Below, piece by piece: positions 10,557 to 18,310 of a DNA stretch of 40,833 nt. Position 1 is the first letter of the stretch. Each line of letters starts with the position of its first letter. Source of the stretch: Bacteroidales bacterium. GTDB lineage: Bacteria; Bacteroidota; Bacteroidia; Bacteroidales; F082. The stretch covers positions 1 to 40,833 of the forward strand of contig JAFYNK010000029.1 of assembly GCA_017548125.1 (NCBI GenBank), in the 5' to 3' direction. A program made the translations under genes and the position numbers. The notes under the pieces are model-generated. The model was not told the origin of the DNA. It made no database searches and was given only the letters and a program-made list of their open reading frames with translations.

Positions 10557-11333
10557 TTATTTTTTGGTACAAACTACTTGATTTCTATAATTTAAATTTA
10601 TTTCCTTATACTTATCCAATTCAGGATTTCCTTGCATTTTATCAAAAAAATCCTGCATTTTAGCTAACTTTTCTTTAATATTATTAACATCGCCAAAGAT
10701 AACAATAATATTTGTGTTATTCAAAGAAAAAATATAATTTTTCTTTTTGTTTTTATAAATTTGCTTGACACAACATCTTGAATAATCGTCAGCTAGAACT
10801 TCTTTCATAAGAAGAAACATTTCAGGCAAATCCGTCTTTTCATATATTTCATCATTGACGTTTCCATACATGTCGGAAGGGAAGCTGAGATCGCCGTTAC
10901 CGACTATAAGACGCATCACATAATCGTTGTTTGTCGGGAACACATTTCCTTCAGAATCAAGATAAACCGACTTGCCTTTATTGTTATAGACGCGCATTAT
11001 AGGGTTACATTCCGTTATTTCGATGTCAAGTACAGATTTCAGATTTATTTCTGCATCGACGTTCATTGTCCAGGGATTAGCTTTCAACCTATTGACGACA
11101 GAATCGACAGGAATCATATATATTTGATTATTATTGACGGTATCGCATATTTTCAATATCATTTCACGAGTCTCATCATAATCCACGAAGCCGTCTTCTC
11201 CATTTCTGGCTATTGTAAGATTTATATTTTCAAGATTTTCATGAAAATAATCATAGGCAAGATAAACCGACAGTCCCACGAAGGCTGTCAGTGTAAATAC
11301 CAACAACAATATACTCAACACTTTCCTCATCAT
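10557..11333 (-). CDS. ftsQ: Cell division protein FtsQ
   Basis: A bitopic divisome protein linking early and late division components. It has a short cytoplasmic N-terminus, one membrane segment at about residues 6-27, and a periplasmic part with a POTRA-like region around 35-105 (VNRLKANPWTMNVDAEINLKSVLDIEITE is the recognisable core). The rest resembles the FtsQ beta domain. Its start overlaps the murC stop by four bases, which suggests translational coupling. Sequence conservation in this family is low, so position between murC and ftsA carries much of the assignment. Confidence 0.9.
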   Translation of the reverse strand: MMRKVLSILLLVFTLTAFVGLSVYLAYDYFHENLENINLTIARNGEDGFVDYDETREMILKICDTVNNNQIYMIPVDSVVNRLKANPWTMNVDAEINLKSVLDIEITECNPIMRVYNNKGKSVYLDSEGNVFPTNNDYVMRLIVGNGDLSFPSDMYGNVNDEIYEKTDLPEMFLLMKEVLADDYSRCCVKQIYKNKKKNYIFSLNNTNIIVIFGDVNNIKEKLAKMQDFFDKMQGNPELDKYKEINLNYRNQVVCTKK

Positions 11334-12676
11334 TTCAATAATGTTTCTATTTGTGGCACGAATCTGTCAATATCGCCAGCACCCATTGTCACTATGAGTT
11401 CTGGATTCAGTTCTTTTATTGTATCGAGGAGTTCTTCTTTGCTGCATAATTGTTTTTGTTCACAGCTTATTTTCTGGAGCAGAACAGAAGATGTTATTCC
11501 ATCAATTGGTTTTTCGCGAGCCGGATAAATCTCCATCAAGAGCAATCTGTCGGCGAGTGATAAAGCCTCCGCAAATTCATTCATAAAATCTCGTGTTCTC
11601 GAGAAAAGATGCGGCTGAAAAACAAGTGTAAGTTTCTTATTTGGAAAAATATCACGTACTGCTTTAAGCGAAGCCTTTATTTCTTCAGGATGATGTGCGT
11701 AATCATCTATATAACAAACTCTTTCGTTTTTAAGTCTTATATCGAAACGACGCTGCACCCCTTGAAACGCTGCCAAGCCTTCTCTCAAAGTCTGAATGCC
11801 GACCTGAAGCTGCAAACATGTTATTATTGCCGACAACGCATTCATGACATTATGCTTTCCAAACAGCTGCATCTCAAACTCACCGAATCCCAGCCCTTCT
11901 TTTGTCACGACAGAAAACTTTGTCATTCCGTTTTCTATTCTCACGTCCTGCGCCATCACATCAGCGTCTTCAAATCCGTATGTCAGATGCTTCCTATCTG
12001 TCACCAGCGGCAGGTCCTTATTATAAACCACCACGCCATCCGGCATTGTTTTATCAACAAACTGGCTGAAGCTTTCAAACACCTGTTCCTTATCTCCGTA
12101 AATGTCGAGATGGTCAGCGTCTATTGATGTCACAATGCTTATATAAGGGTTAAGCTGCAAGAAAGAGCGGTCGAATTCATCGGCTTCCATAACGACTATT
12201 TCGTCGTTCTCGTCGCCTATTATCACATTGCTATTGATATTCTTAGCTATTCCTCCGACGAATGCCGACATTTTCTTACCGGCATAATTAAGGATATGTG
12301 TTATCATAGCCGTCACCGTTGTCTTGCCATGGCTTCCCGACACAGCGACGCTTCTGCATTGACGTGATATTTCGCCAAGCACTTCCGCACGTTTTATTAT
12401 CCTGACATTTTTTTCTCTAAGATAATTGAGTTCCAACGAATCGTTTGGTATTGCTGGCGTAAGCACAACGAAATCAACGTTATCTGGAATCAATTCAGGA
12501 TTATCTTCATAATGAATAAGCATGCCTTCTTCCTCAAGTTTTCTTGTCAATGGCGACGGCGTTTTATCATAACCTGTCACAGTACATCCTTTCTGATAGA
12601 AATAACGAGCCAGTGCGCTCATTCCGATGCCACCTATTCCAAGGAAATATATATTTTGCTTGACAATCTTATTCAT
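11330..12676 (-). CDS. murC: UDP-N-acetylmuramate--L-alanine ligase
   Basis: Adds the first amino acid of the peptidoglycan stem to UDP-MurNAc. A complete three-domain Mur ligase of 448 residues: the N-terminal UDP-binding segment YFLGIGGIGMSALARY, the ATP-binding SGSHGKTTVTAMI near residue 110, the central MEADEFDRSF near 165, and DDYAHHPEEIKAS near 318 in the C-terminal part. All three domains are intact, in contrast with the murD remnant in the same operon. It is 12 bases from murG and overlaps ftsQ by 4 bases. Confidence 0.97.
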   Translation of the reverse strand: MNKIVKQNIYFLGIGGIGMSALARYFYQKGCTVTGYDKTPSPLTRKLEEEGMLIHYEDNPELIPDNVDFVVLTPAIPNDSLELNYLREKNVRIIKRAEVLGEISRQCRSVAVSGSHGKTTVTAMITHILNYAGKKMSAFVGGIAKNINSNVIIGDENDEIVVMEADEFDRSFLQLNPYISIVTSIDADHLDIYGDKEQVFESFSQFVDKTMPDGVVVYNKDLPLVTDRKHLTYGFEDADVMAQDVRIENGMTKFSVVTKEGLGFGEFEMQLFGKHNVMNALSAIITCLQLQVGIQTLREGLAAFQGVQRRFDIRLKNERVCYIDDYAHHPEEIKASLKAVRDIFPNKKLTLVFQPHLFSRTRDFMNEFAEALSLADRLLLMEIYPAREKPIDGITSSVLLQKISCEQKQLCSKEELLDTIKELNPELIVTMGAGDIDRFVPQIETLLK

Positions 12677-12688
12677 CTTTTATTTGAT

Positions 12689-13819
12689 TTATTTCTTATT
12701 TATTATCATTTCTATTTGATCTACAATATCTTCTGCCGCATTAGGCTTAGCGAATCTAGCGATATTGTCTCTCATTTCATTTTGCAGCGTCTCATTTTGC
12801 AACAAATTAAACACTACTGGCAAAAGCTCTTTTTCTGTCTTAGAGTTCGTTACCATCAAAGCCGCTTTTTCATTGACAAGGCTCATCGCATTTTTTGTCT
12901 GATGATCTTCAGCAGCTGTAGGCAACGGGACGAAAACTACAGCTTTACGGAGCAATGACAATTCTGAAATTGACATGGCGCCGGCTCGAGAGATAACGAC
13001 ATCTGCCGCCGAATAAGCCATATCCATTCTGTCGATAAAGACAGTACATTTGATTCTGTCTTGAAGTCCGTTTCTCTTCACTTCTTCGAGAGCTTTTTCG
13101 TAATAATGGACGCCAGTCTGCCATATCATTTGGTAATCATTATCTTTAAAAGCATCTATCATTGCCGAGATGCCTTTATTAATACCGAGAGCGCCCTGAC
13201 TTCCTCCGACGAGCAGTATAGTCTTCTTTGAAGCGTCGAGGCCAAAGAATCTCAGGCATTCGTCTTTCTTGTCATCAAGCGATTTTATATTGTTTCTTAG
13301 AGGGTTACCGGTAAGAACGACCTTATCTTTCGGGAACCACTTCTCCATATTTTCGTAAGCCACACAAATCTTAGACGCTTTTTTCGCGACCAATTTATTT
13401 GTCACGCCTGGAAAAGAGTTCTGTTCTTGAATGACGATAGGGATGCCAAGAGAAGAAGCGGTCTTCATTGTCGGGCCGCTTGCGAAGCCACCTACGCCAA
13501 TCACCACGTCAGGCCTGAAGCGTCTGATGATTTTTCTTGCCTTTATCATGCTGCTCATGAGTTTAAAAGGGAAGCTCAGGTTATCGAGCGACAATTCTCT
13601 TTTAAAGCCACTAATCCATAGACCTTCAATAGGATAACCTGCCTTAGGCACTCTATCCATTTCCATTCTGTTCTTGGCACCTATAAACAAGATGTCAGCT
13701 TGAGGGAAACGTTTTTTCAAGCAGTCGGCTATTGCTATGGCAGGAAAGATATGACCTCCAGTGCCACCGCCACTAATTATTATTTTGGGTTGTTTCGAGT
13801 TCATCTCTTTTTTCTTCAT
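12689..13819 (-). CDS. murG: UDP-GlcNAc--lipid I N-acetylglucosaminyltransferase MurG
   Basis: Converts lipid I to lipid II at the inner face of the membrane. It is a GT-B enzyme with GGGTGGHIFPAIAIA as the N-terminal G loop, a second glycine-rich stretch GGFASGP, GGSQGALGIN in the C-terminal domain, and SRAGAMSISEL with LPTAAEDHQTKNA for UDP-GlcNAc binding. The 376 residues are normal. The start is uncertain: the first ATG gives MKKKEMNSKQPK and overlaps ftsW by 47 bases, while the internal Met six codons on (13804) would shorten the overlap to 32. Confidence 0.96.
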   Translation of the reverse strand: MKKKEMNSKQPKIIISGGGTGGHIFPAIAIADCLKKRFPQADILFIGAKNRMEMDRVPKAGYPIEGLWISGFKRELSLDNLSFPFKLMSSMIKARKIIRRFRPDVVIGVGGFASGPTMKTASSLGIPIVIQEQNSFPGVTNKLVAKKASKICVAYENMEKWFPKDKVVLTGNPLRNNIKSLDDKKDECLRFFGLDASKKTILLVGGSQGALGINKGISAMIDAFKDNDYQMIWQTGVHYYEKALEEVKRNGLQDRIKCTVFIDRMDMAYSAADVVISRAGAMSISELSLLRKAVVFVPLPTAAEDHQTKNAMSLVNEKAALMVTNSKTEKELLPVVFNLLQNETLQNEMRDNIARFAKPNAAEDIVDQIEMIINKK

Positions 13820-14981
13820 TATTGATGTCTTTAGATATGCTTAATATTATTCCTATCGCGAAGCCTGTCAGCATTATAGAGCTGCCTCCCATGCTTATCA
13901 TTGGCAGCGGTTGACCTGTCACAGGCAGCAGTCCTACCGCCACGCCCATATTCACCATCGCCTGCATCACGATCATGAAGGCGAGTCCAAATGCCAAGAA
14001 ACCTCCGAACGACTGCGGTCGCACAGCCATTATAGCCACAGCCCGGAAAAGCAGAATCATATATAACATTAGAACAACAATGCCTCCTACCAATCCGTAT
14101 TCTTCAAGAATTATCGCATAGACGAAATCCGAATATGGGTGTGGCAAGAAATTACGTTGTGTACTTCTTCCCGGTCCTTTTCCCAATATTCCGCCGGTAG
14201 CGACAGCTATTTTAGACTGTATAATTTGAAAATCCTCCTCGTTTTCCTGTCTGGCAAGTTCTGCCGCATCTTTCACTTCATCTTTCTTGAACGACTCCAC
14301 ATAACTCACAACACGCTGCACCCACACACCAGTACGTCCCTTGTCTTCAGCGAAATTCATAACAATCAATACGTATATCGTCACTGCGACAAAAACTATC
14401 GCGAAGAATATCATGAGATATTTCATATTTATTCTGCCAACAAAAAGGAGAACCATACAACTTGCAAACAAGATTCCTGCTGTCGAGAAGTTTTCAGGAA
14501 ATATCAGAGCCACAACAACCAACACTGGTAACATCAACGGAATGAAAGCTGTCTTAAAATCTTTGATATTATCCTGTCTCAGTGTCAGTTCCCTTGCAAG
14601 ATAACCGATGAGAGCCACCTTGGCAAAGTCGCTCGACTGAAATGATATCAAACCGAATATCTTAATAGTACGCTGCGCTTCATTGAGATCAGTACCACCT
14701 ATCAACGTATAAATCAACAATGGTATTGACAGAAAGAAAAACAGCCAGAGCAAACGTGAATAATAAGTATATTTAAAGAGATGAGCCACATAGACAGCAC
14801 CTAAACCGACTAATAACCTTACAGCATGTAACAACAAAGTATAAGTGTTATTGCCATTATATTTAACATTGGCGTATGTTCCTGTCGCACTATACACCGC
14901 CAACAACGATGACAATACAAGCAACATGACCACCATCCATATCACTTTATCTCCTTGAAATATCTTATTAGACAACTTCAT
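13773..14981 (-). CDS. ftsW: Lipid II polymerase FtsW (SEDS family)
   Basis: A polytopic SEDS-family glycosyltransferase that polymerises septal peptidoglycan with the FtsI transpeptidase encoded upstream. Around ten membrane segments are evident. The family signature is clear near the C-terminus: VGLLPVTGQPLPMISMGGSS. A soluble stretch around residues 205-260 (DKGRTGVWVQRV and a charged segment) corresponds to the large extracytoplasmic loop. The length of 402 is normal. It lies 6 bases after the murD remnant and overlaps murG. Confidence 0.96.
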   Translation of the reverse strand: MKLSNKIFQGDKVIWMVVMLLVLSSLLAVYSATGTYANVKYNGNNTYTLLLHAVRLLVGLGAVYVAHLFKYTYYSRLLWLFFFLSIPLLIYTLIGGTDLNEAQRTIKIFGLISFQSSDFAKVALIGYLARELTLRQDNIKDFKTAFIPLMLPVLVVVALIFPENFSTAGILFASCMVLLFVGRINMKYLMIFFAIVFVAVTIYVLIVMNFAEDKGRTGVWVQRVVSYVESFKKDEVKDAAELARQENEEDFQIIQSKIAVATGGILGKGPGRSTQRNFLPHPYSDFVYAIILEEYGLVGGIVVLMLYMILLFRAVAIMAVRPQSFGGFLAFGLAFMIVMQAMVNMGVAVGLLPVTGQPLPMISMGGSSIMLTGFAIGIILSISKDINNEEKRDELETTQNNN

Positions 14982-14987
14982 TATGTT

Positions 14988-15536
14988 TTATTTTAAAGAG
15001 CTGACACATTGTTTGAAGAAATCGCCTCTTTCAGCGTATGACGAGAAGTCACCTTTTACAGGTGTTGCAGGAGAGAACAACACGTTGTCGCCCTTTTCAG
15101 CCATTTCGTATGATAATTTTACAGCTTCCTTAACAGATTGGCAGTCAACGATGTTATTATTCACAATATCACCGAATACATCATGTATTCTTTTGGTGTT
15201 ATCACCTATACACACTATAGCTTTAACATATTTTTTCACTTGAGGGATAAGGTCATCGCAATCGAAATTGTCGGCGTATGTTATCCATATCACTGAATCG
15301 TGTATGTTGTCGAATGAAAACCAAGCAGCTTCATTGGAACAAGCTCCAGAATCGTCATAGAAAGTGATGTTTTCTATTGTCTCCACAAATTCGTATCTGT
15401 ATTTTATATTCTCAAAGTCACAAAATGCCTGTTTTATGCTTTCTTTTCTTATCTGACTCATTTTTGAAGAGATAGTCGCCGCTGTTGTCATCGACGATGT
15501 TCTTCTTCCCTGTCTTGCCAATTGTTCTAATGTCAT
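14988..15536 (-). CDS. MurD remnant: C-terminal ligase domain only
   Basis: Sits where murD (UDP-MurNAc-L-Ala--D-Glu ligase, ~450 residues) is expected, between mraY and ftsW, but has only 182 residues. From about residue 10 to the end it matches the end of the MurD central domain plus the C-terminal domain: IRKESIKQAFCDFENIKYRYEFV, KAIVCIG, SVKEAVKLSYEMAEKGDNVLFSPA and YAERGDFFK all have MurD counterparts. The UDP-binding domain and the ATP-binding domain with its GTNGKTT loop are absent. Only 27 bases separate it from mraY, so they are not present in another frame. Family NDSKATN reads DDSGACS (61-67), the G-G-x-x-K segment reads YADNF (88-92), and SPACASFD reads SPATPVKG (155-162). Ligase activity is very unlikely. 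An uninterrupted frame of this length suggests another retained role or a recent loss. Confidence 0.8.
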   Translation of the reverse strand: MTLEQLARQGRRTSSMTTAATISSKMSQIRKESIKQAFCDFENIKYRYEFVETIENITFYDDSGACSNEAAWFSFDNIHDSVIWITYADNFDCDDLIPQVKKYVKAIVCIGDNTKRIHDVFGDIVNNNIVDCQSVKEAVKLSYEMAEKGDNVLFSPATPVKGDFSSYAERGDFFKQCVSSLK

Positions 15537-15563
15537 AATATATGAATGTTTATATGTTAATAA

Positions 15564-16844
15564 TTATCTGATTTTCAATGTTAATATTGCGAATGCTGCG
15601 AGTATGATACTTACAATCCAAAAACGGAATGTTATCTTTGATTCATGATAGAGATGAGGCGAGCCTTTAAACACCACCTTACATCCTGGGTCGTTTTTCT
15701 CCACCAAAGCGAGCGACGTTCTGTAATGGTCGTGAACCGGCGTTCTCTTCCAAAGACGCTGACGGACACCTTTTCTCTTTCCCATTTTGTAATAAGACTT
15801 TTGCAAAATGACAGAAAGGCTTTCCCAAAGAAAGACTCCGCATATCACAGGAAGCAACAATTCTTTATGGATAATAACAGCCGACACAGCGATAATTCCG
15901 CCTATTGTAAGGCTGCCTGTATCGCCCATGAACACCTGCGCTGGATATGAATTATACCACAAGAAGCCTATCAACGCTCCAACAAATGCACACAAGAAAA
16001 CAACGACCTCTTCGCTTCCTGGTATAAACATAATATTAAGATAATCAGCCAAAACAACGTGACTTGACACATACGCCAGCACTGCCAAGGCGACGCCCAT
16101 TATTGCCGAGTTGCCAGCCGCCATTCCGTCCATTCCATCGTTGAGATTTGAGCCATTCGACACCGCTGTGACAGCAAGAATTGTTATCACCACGAAGAAA
16201 ATCCAGCCAGCCCAATATTTGTAAGGCTCGCCAATAAAATTAAATAAATCGGAATAATTCAAGTTGTTATCCTTGACGAAAGGAATCGTTGTACGAGTCG
16301 ATTTAACATCTGGAGTTTTTATAACGACTTCTTTATTATCTTCGATTTTAATATCAACCTTTTCATTCATAACAACTTCTGGACTAAAACGCAATGTCAA
16401 GCCAACGATGAGACCGAGAAGCACTTGCGCAAACACTTTATACCATCCGTTAAGTCCTTCCTTGTTTTTTTTGAATGTTTTGATATAATCATCTGCAAAA
16501 CCCACAGCACCGAGCAGCACCGTTGTAACAAGCATCAATATCATATATACATTCTTGATTTTTCCTATCAAAAGACAAGGAATCAATATTGAAGTAATGA
16601 TGATTATTCCGCCCATTGTAGGCACGCCTTTTTTCTGAGTATTAAATGGGTCGATAGACTCATCTCTCTGCGTCTCAGATATTTGACGTTTCTTTAATAA
16701 TTTTATGAAAAACTCGCCGAATTTTATAGAAATCAACAATGATGCAATTATTGCGAATATTGCACGAAATGTGACGTATGTAAACATTCCTGCTCCAGGA
16801 AAGTCACAGCATTTATCAAGATATTCGAACAAATAGTATAACAT
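15564..16844 (-). CDS. mraY: Phospho-N-acetylmuramoyl-pentapeptide-transferase
   Basis: Transfers phospho-MurNAc-pentapeptide to undecaprenyl phosphate to make lipid I. It is a polytopic membrane enzyme with the expected motifs: GGIIIITSIL after GVPTMGG, LGAVGFADDYIKTFKKNKEG with the catalytic Asp pair, SNGSNLNDGMDGMAAG, FMGDTGSL, and RKGVRQRLWKRTPVHDHYR with the HDH-type cytoplasmic loop. The 426 residues exceed the ~360 of E. coli because of an insertion at about residues 160-205, which I recall as usual for Bacteroidetes. It follows murE by 8 bases. Confidence 0.97.
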   Translation of the reverse strand: MLYYLFEYLDKCCDFPGAGMFTYVTFRAIFAIIASLLISIKFGEFFIKLLKKRQISETQRDESIDPFNTQKKGVPTMGGIIIITSILIPCLLIGKIKNVYMILMLVTTVLLGAVGFADDYIKTFKKNKEGLNGWYKVFAQVLLGLIVGLTLRFSPEVVMNEKVDIKIEDNKEVVIKTPDVKSTRTTIPFVKDNNLNYSDLFNFIGEPYKYWAGWIFFVVITILAVTAVSNGSNLNDGMDGMAAGNSAIMGVALAVLAYVSSHVVLADYLNIMFIPGSEEVVVFLCAFVGALIGFLWYNSYPAQVFMGDTGSLTIGGIIAVSAVIIHKELLLPVICGVFLWESLSVILQKSYYKMGKRKGVRQRLWKRTPVHDHYRTSLALVEKNDPGCKVVFKGSPHLYHESKITFRFWIVSIILAAFAILTLKIR

Positions 16845-16852
16845 AGTTCTAA

Positions 16853-18310
16853 TTATTTTTCATTCAACGCTTTAGATAATTCTTCCACGTCATCAAAATG
16901 ATGGCGTACGCCTTTTATTTCCTGGTAGTTTTCATGGCCTTTGCCTGCCACCAAGATAATATCGCCTTTCTTTGCCAATGCAGCTGCTGTTCTGATAGCC
17001 TCTCTCCTGTCTGATATGCACAGCACCTTATTATAATACTCACCGCCGACACCTTCACGCATCTGTCTGATGATTTCTTCTGGCTCTTCAAAACGAGGAT
17101 TATCGCTGGTGATAATAAGTCTGTCGCTTCTCATCACTGCGGCGGCTGCCATCTCTGGTCTTTTCGCCGCGTCTCTGTTGCCGCCAGCGCCAGCCACTGT
17201 TATAAGTGTCTCATTATGAGTCCTTATCTCATTTATGGTATCAAGTACATTTTTCAATGCATCAGGAGTATGAGCATAATCAACAATTCCAACAACACCT
17301 GAGTCGGAATGCACCATCTGAAAACGGCCAGGAGCGCTTTGCAACTTGCTTATTTCCTTTAACAAATCATCATCGCTCATACCAAGCAAGGAGGCAGCTC
17401 CATAAATAGCTAGCAAATTACTTACATTAAACTTGCCAACCAAAAAAGTAGAAATGTTATTTCTATTGATTTTCAACTCCATACCATCGAAATAACTTTC
17501 CATAACCACACCTTTGAAATCAGCATCGGTTCTCAAAGAATAAGTCTTTTTCGTTGCCTTTGTATTTTGCAGCATAACCATTCCGTTTCTATCGTCGAGG
17601 TTTGTCAGAGCAAAGGCTGAGGATGTAAGATTATCAAAGAATTTCTTTTTCGCATCACGATATGCAGCCACTGTCTTGTGATAATCAAGATGATCGTGAG
17701 TCAGGTTTGTAAATATTCCTCCAACGAAATGAAGTCCTGCAATTCTGTCTTGATCTATAGCATGAGAACTGACTTCCATGAATGCGTATTCGCAGCCTGC
17801 CTCAACCATACGACTCAGCATCTCATTGATTTGCAACTGATCGCCAGTAGTATGAGTAGAAGGAACAACAATATTATTGATTCTGTTTTCTATCGTCGAA
17901 AGCAATCCGCAAGGATAGCCAGCATTGAAAAACAAACGATACAACAAAGTGGCTATTGTCGTTTTTCCGTTTGTGCCGGTAACGCCGACAAGACGAAGCT
18001 TCTCTGATGGTCTGTCATAAAATTCAGACGCTGCATATCCTAAAGCGACAGCACTATCCTCTACAACGTAATATGTCACATCATCGACAATAGCTTCTGG
18101 AAGTCGCTCGCATACAACAACTTTACTTCCCTGCTCAATAGCCTTGCCTATAAAGTCATGGCCATCGACCTGAGTTCCTCTCAATGCGAAAAACGCAATT
18201 CCGTCAGAACATTTGCGCGAATCAAAAGTAAGTCCTGCAACGATTTTACCATCATTGCCAACCACTTCAATAACATTACTTTGCCTTAATATATCGTTTA
18301 TCTTTTTCAT
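16853..18310 (-). CDS. murE: UDP-MurNAc-L-Ala-D-Glu--meso-diaminopimelate ligase
   Basis: Adds the third amino acid to the peptidoglycan stem. All three Mur ligase domains are present: the N-terminal UDP-binding region with FDSRKCSDGIAFFALRG, the ATP loop TGTNGKTT at residues 111-118, the central THDHLDYH and the C-terminal ligase domain. DNPR at 403-406 is the motif associated with meso-diaminopimelate rather than lysine, which agrees with dapD in this window. The start overlaps the ftsI stop by 4 bases. Its substrate is the MurD product, so the missing full-length MurD in the same operon is notable. Confidence 0.97.
   Translation of the reverse strand: MKKINDILRQSNVIEVVGNDGKIVAGLTFDSRKCSDGIAFFALRGTQVDGHDFIGKAIEQGSKVVVCERLPEAIVDDVTYYVVEDSAVALGYAASEFYDRPSEKLRLVGVTGTNGKTTIATLLYRLFFNAGYPCGLLSTIENRINNIVVPSTHTTGDQLQINEMLSRMVEAGCEYAFMEVSSHAIDQDRIAGLHFVGGIFTNLTHDHLDYHKTVAAYRDAKKKFFDNLTSSAFALTNLDDRNGMVMLQNTKATKKTYSLRTDADFKGVVMESYFDGMELKINRNNISTFLVGKFNVSNLLAIYGAASLLGMSDDDLLKEISKLQSAPGRFQMVHSDSGVVGIVDYAHTPDALKNVLDTINEIRTHNETLITVAGAGGNRDAAKRPEMAAAAVMRSDRLIITSDNPRFEEPEEIIRQMREGVGGEYYNKVLCISDRREAIRTAAALAKKGDIILVAGKGHENYQEIKGVRHHFDDVEELSKALNEK

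Follow-up and report, generated by a model that had tools for sequence, protein, structure and literature searches.

A stand-alone C-terminal domain of MurD kept under selection in the dcw cluster of Bacteroidales with a putative MurD2/MurL route

The gene between mraY and ftsW in the dcw cluster of a Bacteroidales bacterium encodes only the last part of MurD, here called MurDc, which is under strong purifying selection at the protein level and probably has a second job beyond ligase catalysis. The explanation that we prefer, with moderate confidence, is that a MurD2/MurL system made the catalysis of MurD dispensable and that its C-terminal domain was kept as a non-catalytic protein, most likely as a docking partner in the lipid II/divisome machinery.

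The truncated murD and its surroundings

The window, i.e. the whole stretch of DNA that was analysed (40,833 nucleotides), comprises contig C16 in full; the draft genome has 2.73 Mb in 97 contigs. The following features of the window are relevant here:

11330..12676, minus strand: murC, full length (TIGR01082 419.4 bits, over cut-off)
12689..13819, minus strand: murG, full length
13773..14981, minus strand: ftsW, downstream neighbour of MurDc, named by position and by similarity to FtsW of relatives
14988..15536, minus strand: truncated MurD (MurDc), 182 aa, assigned by ORF, Pfam, TIGR01087 and profile alignments to the C-terminal domain plus ~40 residues at the end of the central domain
15537..15563, minus strand: gap of 27 bases between mraY and MurDc, into which the missing MurD domains do not fit
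15564..16844, minus strand: mraY, upstream neighbour of MurDc (Glycos_transf_4; TIGR00445 over cut-off in the window's genome, G000)
16853..18310, minus strand: gene matching NF001126 (595.2 bits, over cut-off)

The reading frame of MurDc starts with ATG and its 182 codons are intact; mraY ends 27 bases before it and ftsW begins 6 bases after it. The surrounding dcw cluster is otherwise ordinary, and both MurE and MurC are encoded in the window. Pfam recognised Mur_ligase_C in MurDc with 31.4 bits (cut-off 28.4), and the murD model TIGR01087 matched only at its positions 270-440 of 441, the score of 102.9 bits being below the whole-protein cut-off of 211.95. Scans with Pfam and NCBIfam revealed no N-terminal UDP-binding domain in the ORF or its surroundings, and Mur_ligase_M, the central ATPase domain with the P-loop, is neither present in MurDc nor encoded beside it. 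These results bear out the original prediction that murD is reduced here to 182 residues of its C-terminal part, that the UDP- and ATP-binding domains are absent and that the short gap to mraY leaves no room for them. One refinement concerns the boundary. A profile made from the fragments of the genus aligned with Bacteroidales MurD over 181 columns, nearly gapless (probability 100, E 1.4e-67), and its match with solved E. coli MurD chains begins at residue 260. The C-terminal domain of MurD has been taken to begin at residue 300 (PMC4816537), and MurDc also retains some 40 residues from the end of the central domain.

Among the named relatives, MAGs from ruminants and other guts predominate; they are labelled Bacteroidales, Lentimicrobiaceae and, once, Candidatus Limimorpha caballi; the placement of Candidatus Limimorpha is Bacteroidales incertae sedis.

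MurD2, MurL and the supply of D-glutamate

It had been proposed that something else must perform the ligation, namely a second murD elsewhere in the genome, another ligase or a differently made stem peptide. The first of these three options was borne out, as contig C24 of the same genome carries another MurD of full length:

contig C24, L012 2615-3898: MurD2-type full-length MurD, 427 aa (TIGR01087 319.6 bits over 13-425, over cut-off)
contig C24, L012 3903-5303: MurL homologue (NF041275 E 2.7e-74, model positions 4-398 of 447)

The second murD was thus correctly anticipated, but neither its MurD2-type character beside a MurL homologue nor the recurrence of the truncation across many families had been foreseen. 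The C24 protein is a full three-domain MurD, the P-loop of which reads GTKGKST, and it sits directly after the MurL homologue. The latter scored 250.3 bits against the curated NF041275 cut-off of 700, a model made for Xanthomonadales and not for Bacteroidales. The order of MurL then MurD2 was found in 11 of 11 further genomes, eight with a truncated and three with a full-length dcw MurD.

Residue numbers are given for E. coli MurD, in part as in PMC8788868. In Xanthomonas MurD2, exchanging both E197 and R358 (D182 and K348 in E. coli) changes the substrate from L-Glu to D-Glu (PMC8788868). In the family, each of the 19 aligned MurD2 rows, including the window's own, has a Glu at the D182 position and an Arg at the K348 position; this alignment excludes two MurD2 rows that share a frame with MurL. 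Asp and Lys occupy these positions in 41/41 full-length dcw MurDs from MurL lineages and in 12/12 from racemase-bearing genomes. Judged by these residues, two kinds of MurD coexist in the clade and the C24 enzyme is predicted to use L-Glu. From the residues together with the synteny we infer that in the window's genome L-Glu is probably added first and then epimerised, as in the MurD2/MurL route. A search for the glutamate racemase MurI gave no match at 1e-5 in this genome, and no D-amino-acid transaminase was found over cut-off, while class IV transaminases are present. Regarding the supply of D-Glu beside a full-length MurD, TIGR01121 detected sub-cut-off class IV transaminases only (46/46 genomes), and the eight class IV transaminases that were examined are ambiguous among D-amino-acid transaminase, branched-chain transaminase and aminodeoxychorismate lyase.

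The window's genome encodes seven central domains of Mur ligases, which belong to MurE, MurC, MurF, FolC, a MurF-Alr fusion, an Mpl/MurC-like protein and the C24 MurD. A split MurD working with a free central-domain partner was dropped as an explanation, because all seven belong to other genes in this survey of central domains. The genome contains two MurF-type genes, a stand-alone MurF and the MurF-alanine racemase fusion, at L003 (contig C13) and L008 (contig C87).

At the level of the order, MurL was detected in 123 of 393 sampled genomes. MurI over cut-off occurs in none of these 123 genomes but in 241 of the 270 without MurL (Fisher 2e-74, relatedness ignored); weak sub-cut-off MurI matches exist in 24 MurL-positive genomes, the best with 6.2e-22. 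The window's family has MurL in 95/100 genomes and its genus in 25/26, whereas a MurL search in 247 sampled genomes of the phylum returned the window's own genome as sole match. MurL was not found in G486, a 97% complete member of the genus with truncated MurD, nor in G398 and G399 of the family; the missing match in G486 may reflect an assembly gap or a real loss. Many gut-type Bacteroidales seem to build their cell-wall D-glutamate by another route. MurL alone does not make MurD dispensable, however, since 69 of the 123 MurL-positive genomes keep a competent-looking full-length dcw MurD without MurI over cut-off, with intact catalytic residues in 41/41 aligned proteins.

In some genomes MurL and MurD2 share one open frame of ~880-1005 aa, for example in family f80 (G079, G183, G273, G340) and in G107, G393 and G404, and the MurD2 match lies inside the shared frame at L075, L080 and L222. 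A MurL-MurD2 fusion protein is the likely product of such a frame.

Distribution and recurrence of the truncation

The first locus set consisted of 101 mraY loci, 89 from MurL lineages (including G486, G398 and G399, in which MurL was not found) and 12 from MurI-positive controls. Truncated MurD of 176-199 aa was encoded at 45 loci and full-length MurD at 53 (41 from MurL lineages and the 12 controls); at the remaining three, no MurD followed mraY. In two of these three, G473 and G455 of the window's genus (L044, L045, L203, L205), mraY has been relocated out of the dcw cluster and the fragment was found between murE and ftsW, hence all 26 genomes of the genus carry MurDc. The MraY proteins of this genus, including that encoded at 15564-16844 of the window, diverge more from the family model (E ~1e-43 to 1e-57, best piece) than those of other genera of the same family (mostly E ~1e-70 to 1e-75).

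The order sample was extended by 71 further MurL-positive and 80 further MurI-positive genomes. Of the 123 MurL-positive genomes, 48 have a truncated and 69 a full-length dcw MurD (two partial at contig edges); in the other six (G077, G181, G129, G020, G236, G160) the search gave no dcw-type MurD domain. All 92 MurI-positive genomes examined have a full-length dcw MurD, truncated forms being found in 0/92, and among the genomes examined the truncation is confined to MurL lineages. Thirteen of the 23 truncated genomes added later were fetched and contained no N-terminal or central MurD domain (mraY of G005 was not visible at a contig end), while the other ten were called by frame length. Outside the genus, the family yielded a match in 69 of 74 genomes; the truncated form occurs in G396 alone, and two are either incomplete or partial at a contig edge. 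In family f78, neither of the two genomes sampled (G077, with L095 and L248, and G181) yielded a dcw-type MurD domain, and mraY of G077 is not followed by ftsW. The MurDc domain may have been lost altogether in f78, and would then not be indispensable everywhere.

Truncated and full-length forms coexist in 11 families (f1, f4, f6, f13, f27, f35, f50, f74, f95, f117, f120) and in five genera (g6, g35, g50, g117, g136), hence the truncation recurred. On a tree built with ten dcw proteins of 21 genomes, the label must change seven times, at least five of these changes being forced by well-supported branches, and a single origin was rejected on this set (AU p 8e-37), for which a quick tree was used. 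The rejection rests on the 21-genome, 10-protein set only: with MraY (part) and FtsW, leaving out seven long-branch truncated rows and most rows of the genus, a single origin was not rejected (p 0.207), and in a 96-row tree the best topology needs ten changes of which well-supported branches force only one. The placement of the window's genus differs as well, it groups with f72 in the 96-row tree and with G396 of its own family in the 10-protein tree. The truncation appears to be recent in genus g117: the fragment and the corresponding domain of a full-length sister share 73% identity, yet the stretch from mraY to the start Met is gone entirely.

Most of the truncations begin at one site, as the first residue falls on one shared alignment column in 38/45 truncated proteins. 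A Met stands at this column in 40/41 full-length MurD rows from MurL lineages versus 8/12 MurI-positive controls (Fisher 0.007); with one row per family the counts are 26/27 versus 8/12 (0.025). The DNA before this Met is A-rich, with a mean within-gene percentile of 0.853 in full-length genes of MurL lineages versus 0.394 in controls. In family f35, the truncated gene begins two codons upstream at ATG AGT, and the full-length sister has the same sequence in frame. These features are suggestive of an internal start that may have made a free C-terminal domain already before the truncation; related rows or a Lys/Asn-rich loop could mimic the signal. It is conceivable, though we regard it as unlikely, that the full-length murD of the MurL clade makes both the ligase and free MurDc from the conserved internal ATG, that this free domain serves the Mur/lipid II machinery in trans, either as its lid or as a docking piece, and that after the takeover by MurD2/MurL murD was repeatedly deleted up to that ATG.

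Residues, selection and the possible role of MurDc

The fragments derive from dcw MurD and not from MurD2, as those of the genus share a mean best identity of 41% with full-length dcw MurD versus 23% with MurD2. The motif changes reported earlier (DDSGACS, YADNF, SPATPVKG) are indeed present in the translation, and D-Glu-binding and catalytic residues are lost. At the positions K319, T321, K348, S415 and F/L416 the window's MurDc has G, C, a gap, V and K, respectively. The His of the GxHN motif is present in 41/41 full-length but in only 1/45 truncated proteins. Among the truncated proteins, K348 is kept in 8/45 (2/24 in the genus), K319 in 16/45 (3/24 in the genus, 13/21 outside) and T321 in 15/45 (0/24 in the genus). 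F416 is kept in none of the 24 genus rows, while S415 and F416 of the SPAxASFD loop are kept in 15/21 truncated rows outside the genus. Other positions are well preserved, namely Asp317 (45/45), His301 (38/45), Arg302 (Arg in 42/45, i.e. 24/24 in the genus and 18/21 elsewhere, with Lys in three) and the SP of the last motif (S 42/45, P 44/45). MurDc cannot be an enzyme by itself.

Comparison of the window's MurDc with its nearest relative (L162) gave a dN/dS of 0.022 (bootstrap 0.007-0.052), based on 11.5 non-synonymous versus 65.5 synonymous changes (dN 0.027, dS 1.24); for the same pair, mraY (0.045) and ftsW (0.132) are both above MurDc. Four genus pairs with dS under 0.6 gave 0.036-0.188 for the fragment, and among the closest 40 of 276 genus pairs its dN/dS reaches up to 0.397 (ftsW 0.431 in the same pair). 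MurG comparisons with L163, L164, L170 and L171 were discarded owing to impossible dN values. Hence, the original prediction that the domain itself was kept stands, the ratio being far from the ~1 expected without retained function. Relative to FtsW, the fragment evolves ~1.5 times faster than the same domain of full-length MurD (median ratios of 1.27 and 1.20 against 0.84), as expected once catalysis no longer constrains the domain.

In the preferred explanation, MurD2/MurL would take over ligation and D-Glu formation. The dcw murD, freed from catalysis, would then lose its UDP-binding and ATP-binding domains, here and repeatedly in other lineages, and the C-terminal domain would survive as stand-alone, non-catalytic MurDc made between mraY and ftsW. 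Its job would be a protein-protein one, namely that of the module docking MurD to the lipid II/divisome machinery, with MraY, MurG, FtsW, MurE and MurD2 as candidate partners. We infer this role by elimination and from the precedent of MurD binding MurG and MreB: MurG of Thermotoga maritima binds MurD, MurE and MurF, and for MurD interactions with both MreB and MurG are listed (PMC6420597). Several points speak against this explanation, namely the 69/123 MurL-positive genomes with intact MurD, the 6/123 in which the domain was not found, the ~1.5-fold faster fragment, the MurL score of 250 of 700 bits and the genomes G486, G398 and G399 in which MurL was not found.

The main rival, which we consider rather improbable, is that MurDc does not scaffold the membrane machinery but covers or regulates, in trans, another Mur ligase, with MurD2 or MurE as first candidates. 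As such a lid or regulator it would still dock on a central ATPase domain via the hinge residues and modulate it. The residues that once faced the lost ATPase domain are partly kept (Arg at the Arg302 position in 42/45, Asp317 in 45/45, His301 in 38/45), and Arg302 of E. coli MurD contacts the ADP phosphate and serves as a handle for domain rotation (PMC4816537). However, the conserved Arg and Asp may merely hold the fold, MurD2 already has its own C-terminal domain, and K319, T321, K348 and the GxHN motif are mostly lost. It also appears improbable that MurDc is a leftover ligand sensor for D-Glu, a nucleotide or UDP-MurNAc peptide that reports the precursor supply. The retention of K319 (13/21) and of S415 and F416 (15/21) outside the genus would fit such a sensor, but the window's genus keeps T321 in 0/24, F416 in 0/24, K348 in 2/24 and K319 in 3/24.

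It is highly improbable that the protein is irrelevant and that the frame persists only because it couples translation, or shapes the transcript, between mraY and ftsW. The spacing is tight, with a median gap to ftsW of 3 bases at the 45 truncated loci and a -4 overlap as commonest value (8/45), but the amino acids are constrained while synonymous sites are free, so that the dN/dS refutes coupling as sole cause; moreover, a mere coupling frame needs no MurD domain, and here the whole domain fold is retained. A neutral pseudogene or an assembly deletion, as might be suspected from the lost catalytic residues and the 97-contig draft, has a negligible probability and was rejected, since the fragment is open in 26/26 genus genomes, none of which shows random stop codons, and in 36/36 named genus loci (15 may repeat sampled genomes, 21 look new), in addition to the dN/dS of 0.022.

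If the preferred explanation is true, evolution has repeatedly carried out a domain dissection on an essential enzyme that is an antibiotic target. A domain thought only to hold glutamate would have been retained each time, pointing to a second, non-catalytic function of the MurD C-terminal domain. MurDc, small and soluble, could then be used to look for the long-suspected Mur/lipid II complex, and the MurD2/MurL route would likely be common in gut-type Bacteroidales.

Pseudoenzymes formed by domain loss represent a general class, and they resemble MurDc in that catalysis is lost while fold and selection are retained; to our knowledge, no such case is known in MurD. Searches of the open-access literature revealed neither a stand-alone MurD C-terminal domain nor a description of MurL in Bacteroidales, and no MurD pseudoenzyme, truncated MurD or murD pseudogene in dcw; the "truncated MurD" in PMC12208494 is a two-hybrid construct of the middle part, unlike MurDc. 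MurD itself and the MurD2/MurL route are already known. With MurD (TIGR01087), MurDc shares the position between mraY and ftsW and the homology of the C-terminal domain over its whole length, but it differs by the absence of the UDP- and ATP-binding domains, by the changed positions of the GxHN His, T321, K348 and F416, and by its score below the family cut-off. The MurD2/MurL pathway of Xanthomonas, Stenotrophomonas, Micromonospora and others (PMC8788868) is resembled by the C24 ligase, with the Glu and Arg of L-Glu specificity, beside a MurL homologue in a genome without MurI match. The differences are the occurrence in Bacteroidales, whereas the accessible sections of that review name proteobacteria and actinobacteria only (PMC8788868), the MurL score of 250 of 700 bits and the combination of MurL and MurD2 in one frame in some genomes; here the pathway is predicted from the genes. 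Finally, the Mur ligase assemblies scaffolded by MurG and MreB concern whole enzymes, with no stand-alone MurD domain described in the accessible part of that source, but they provide the precedent for MurD binding MurG and MreB (PMC6420597).
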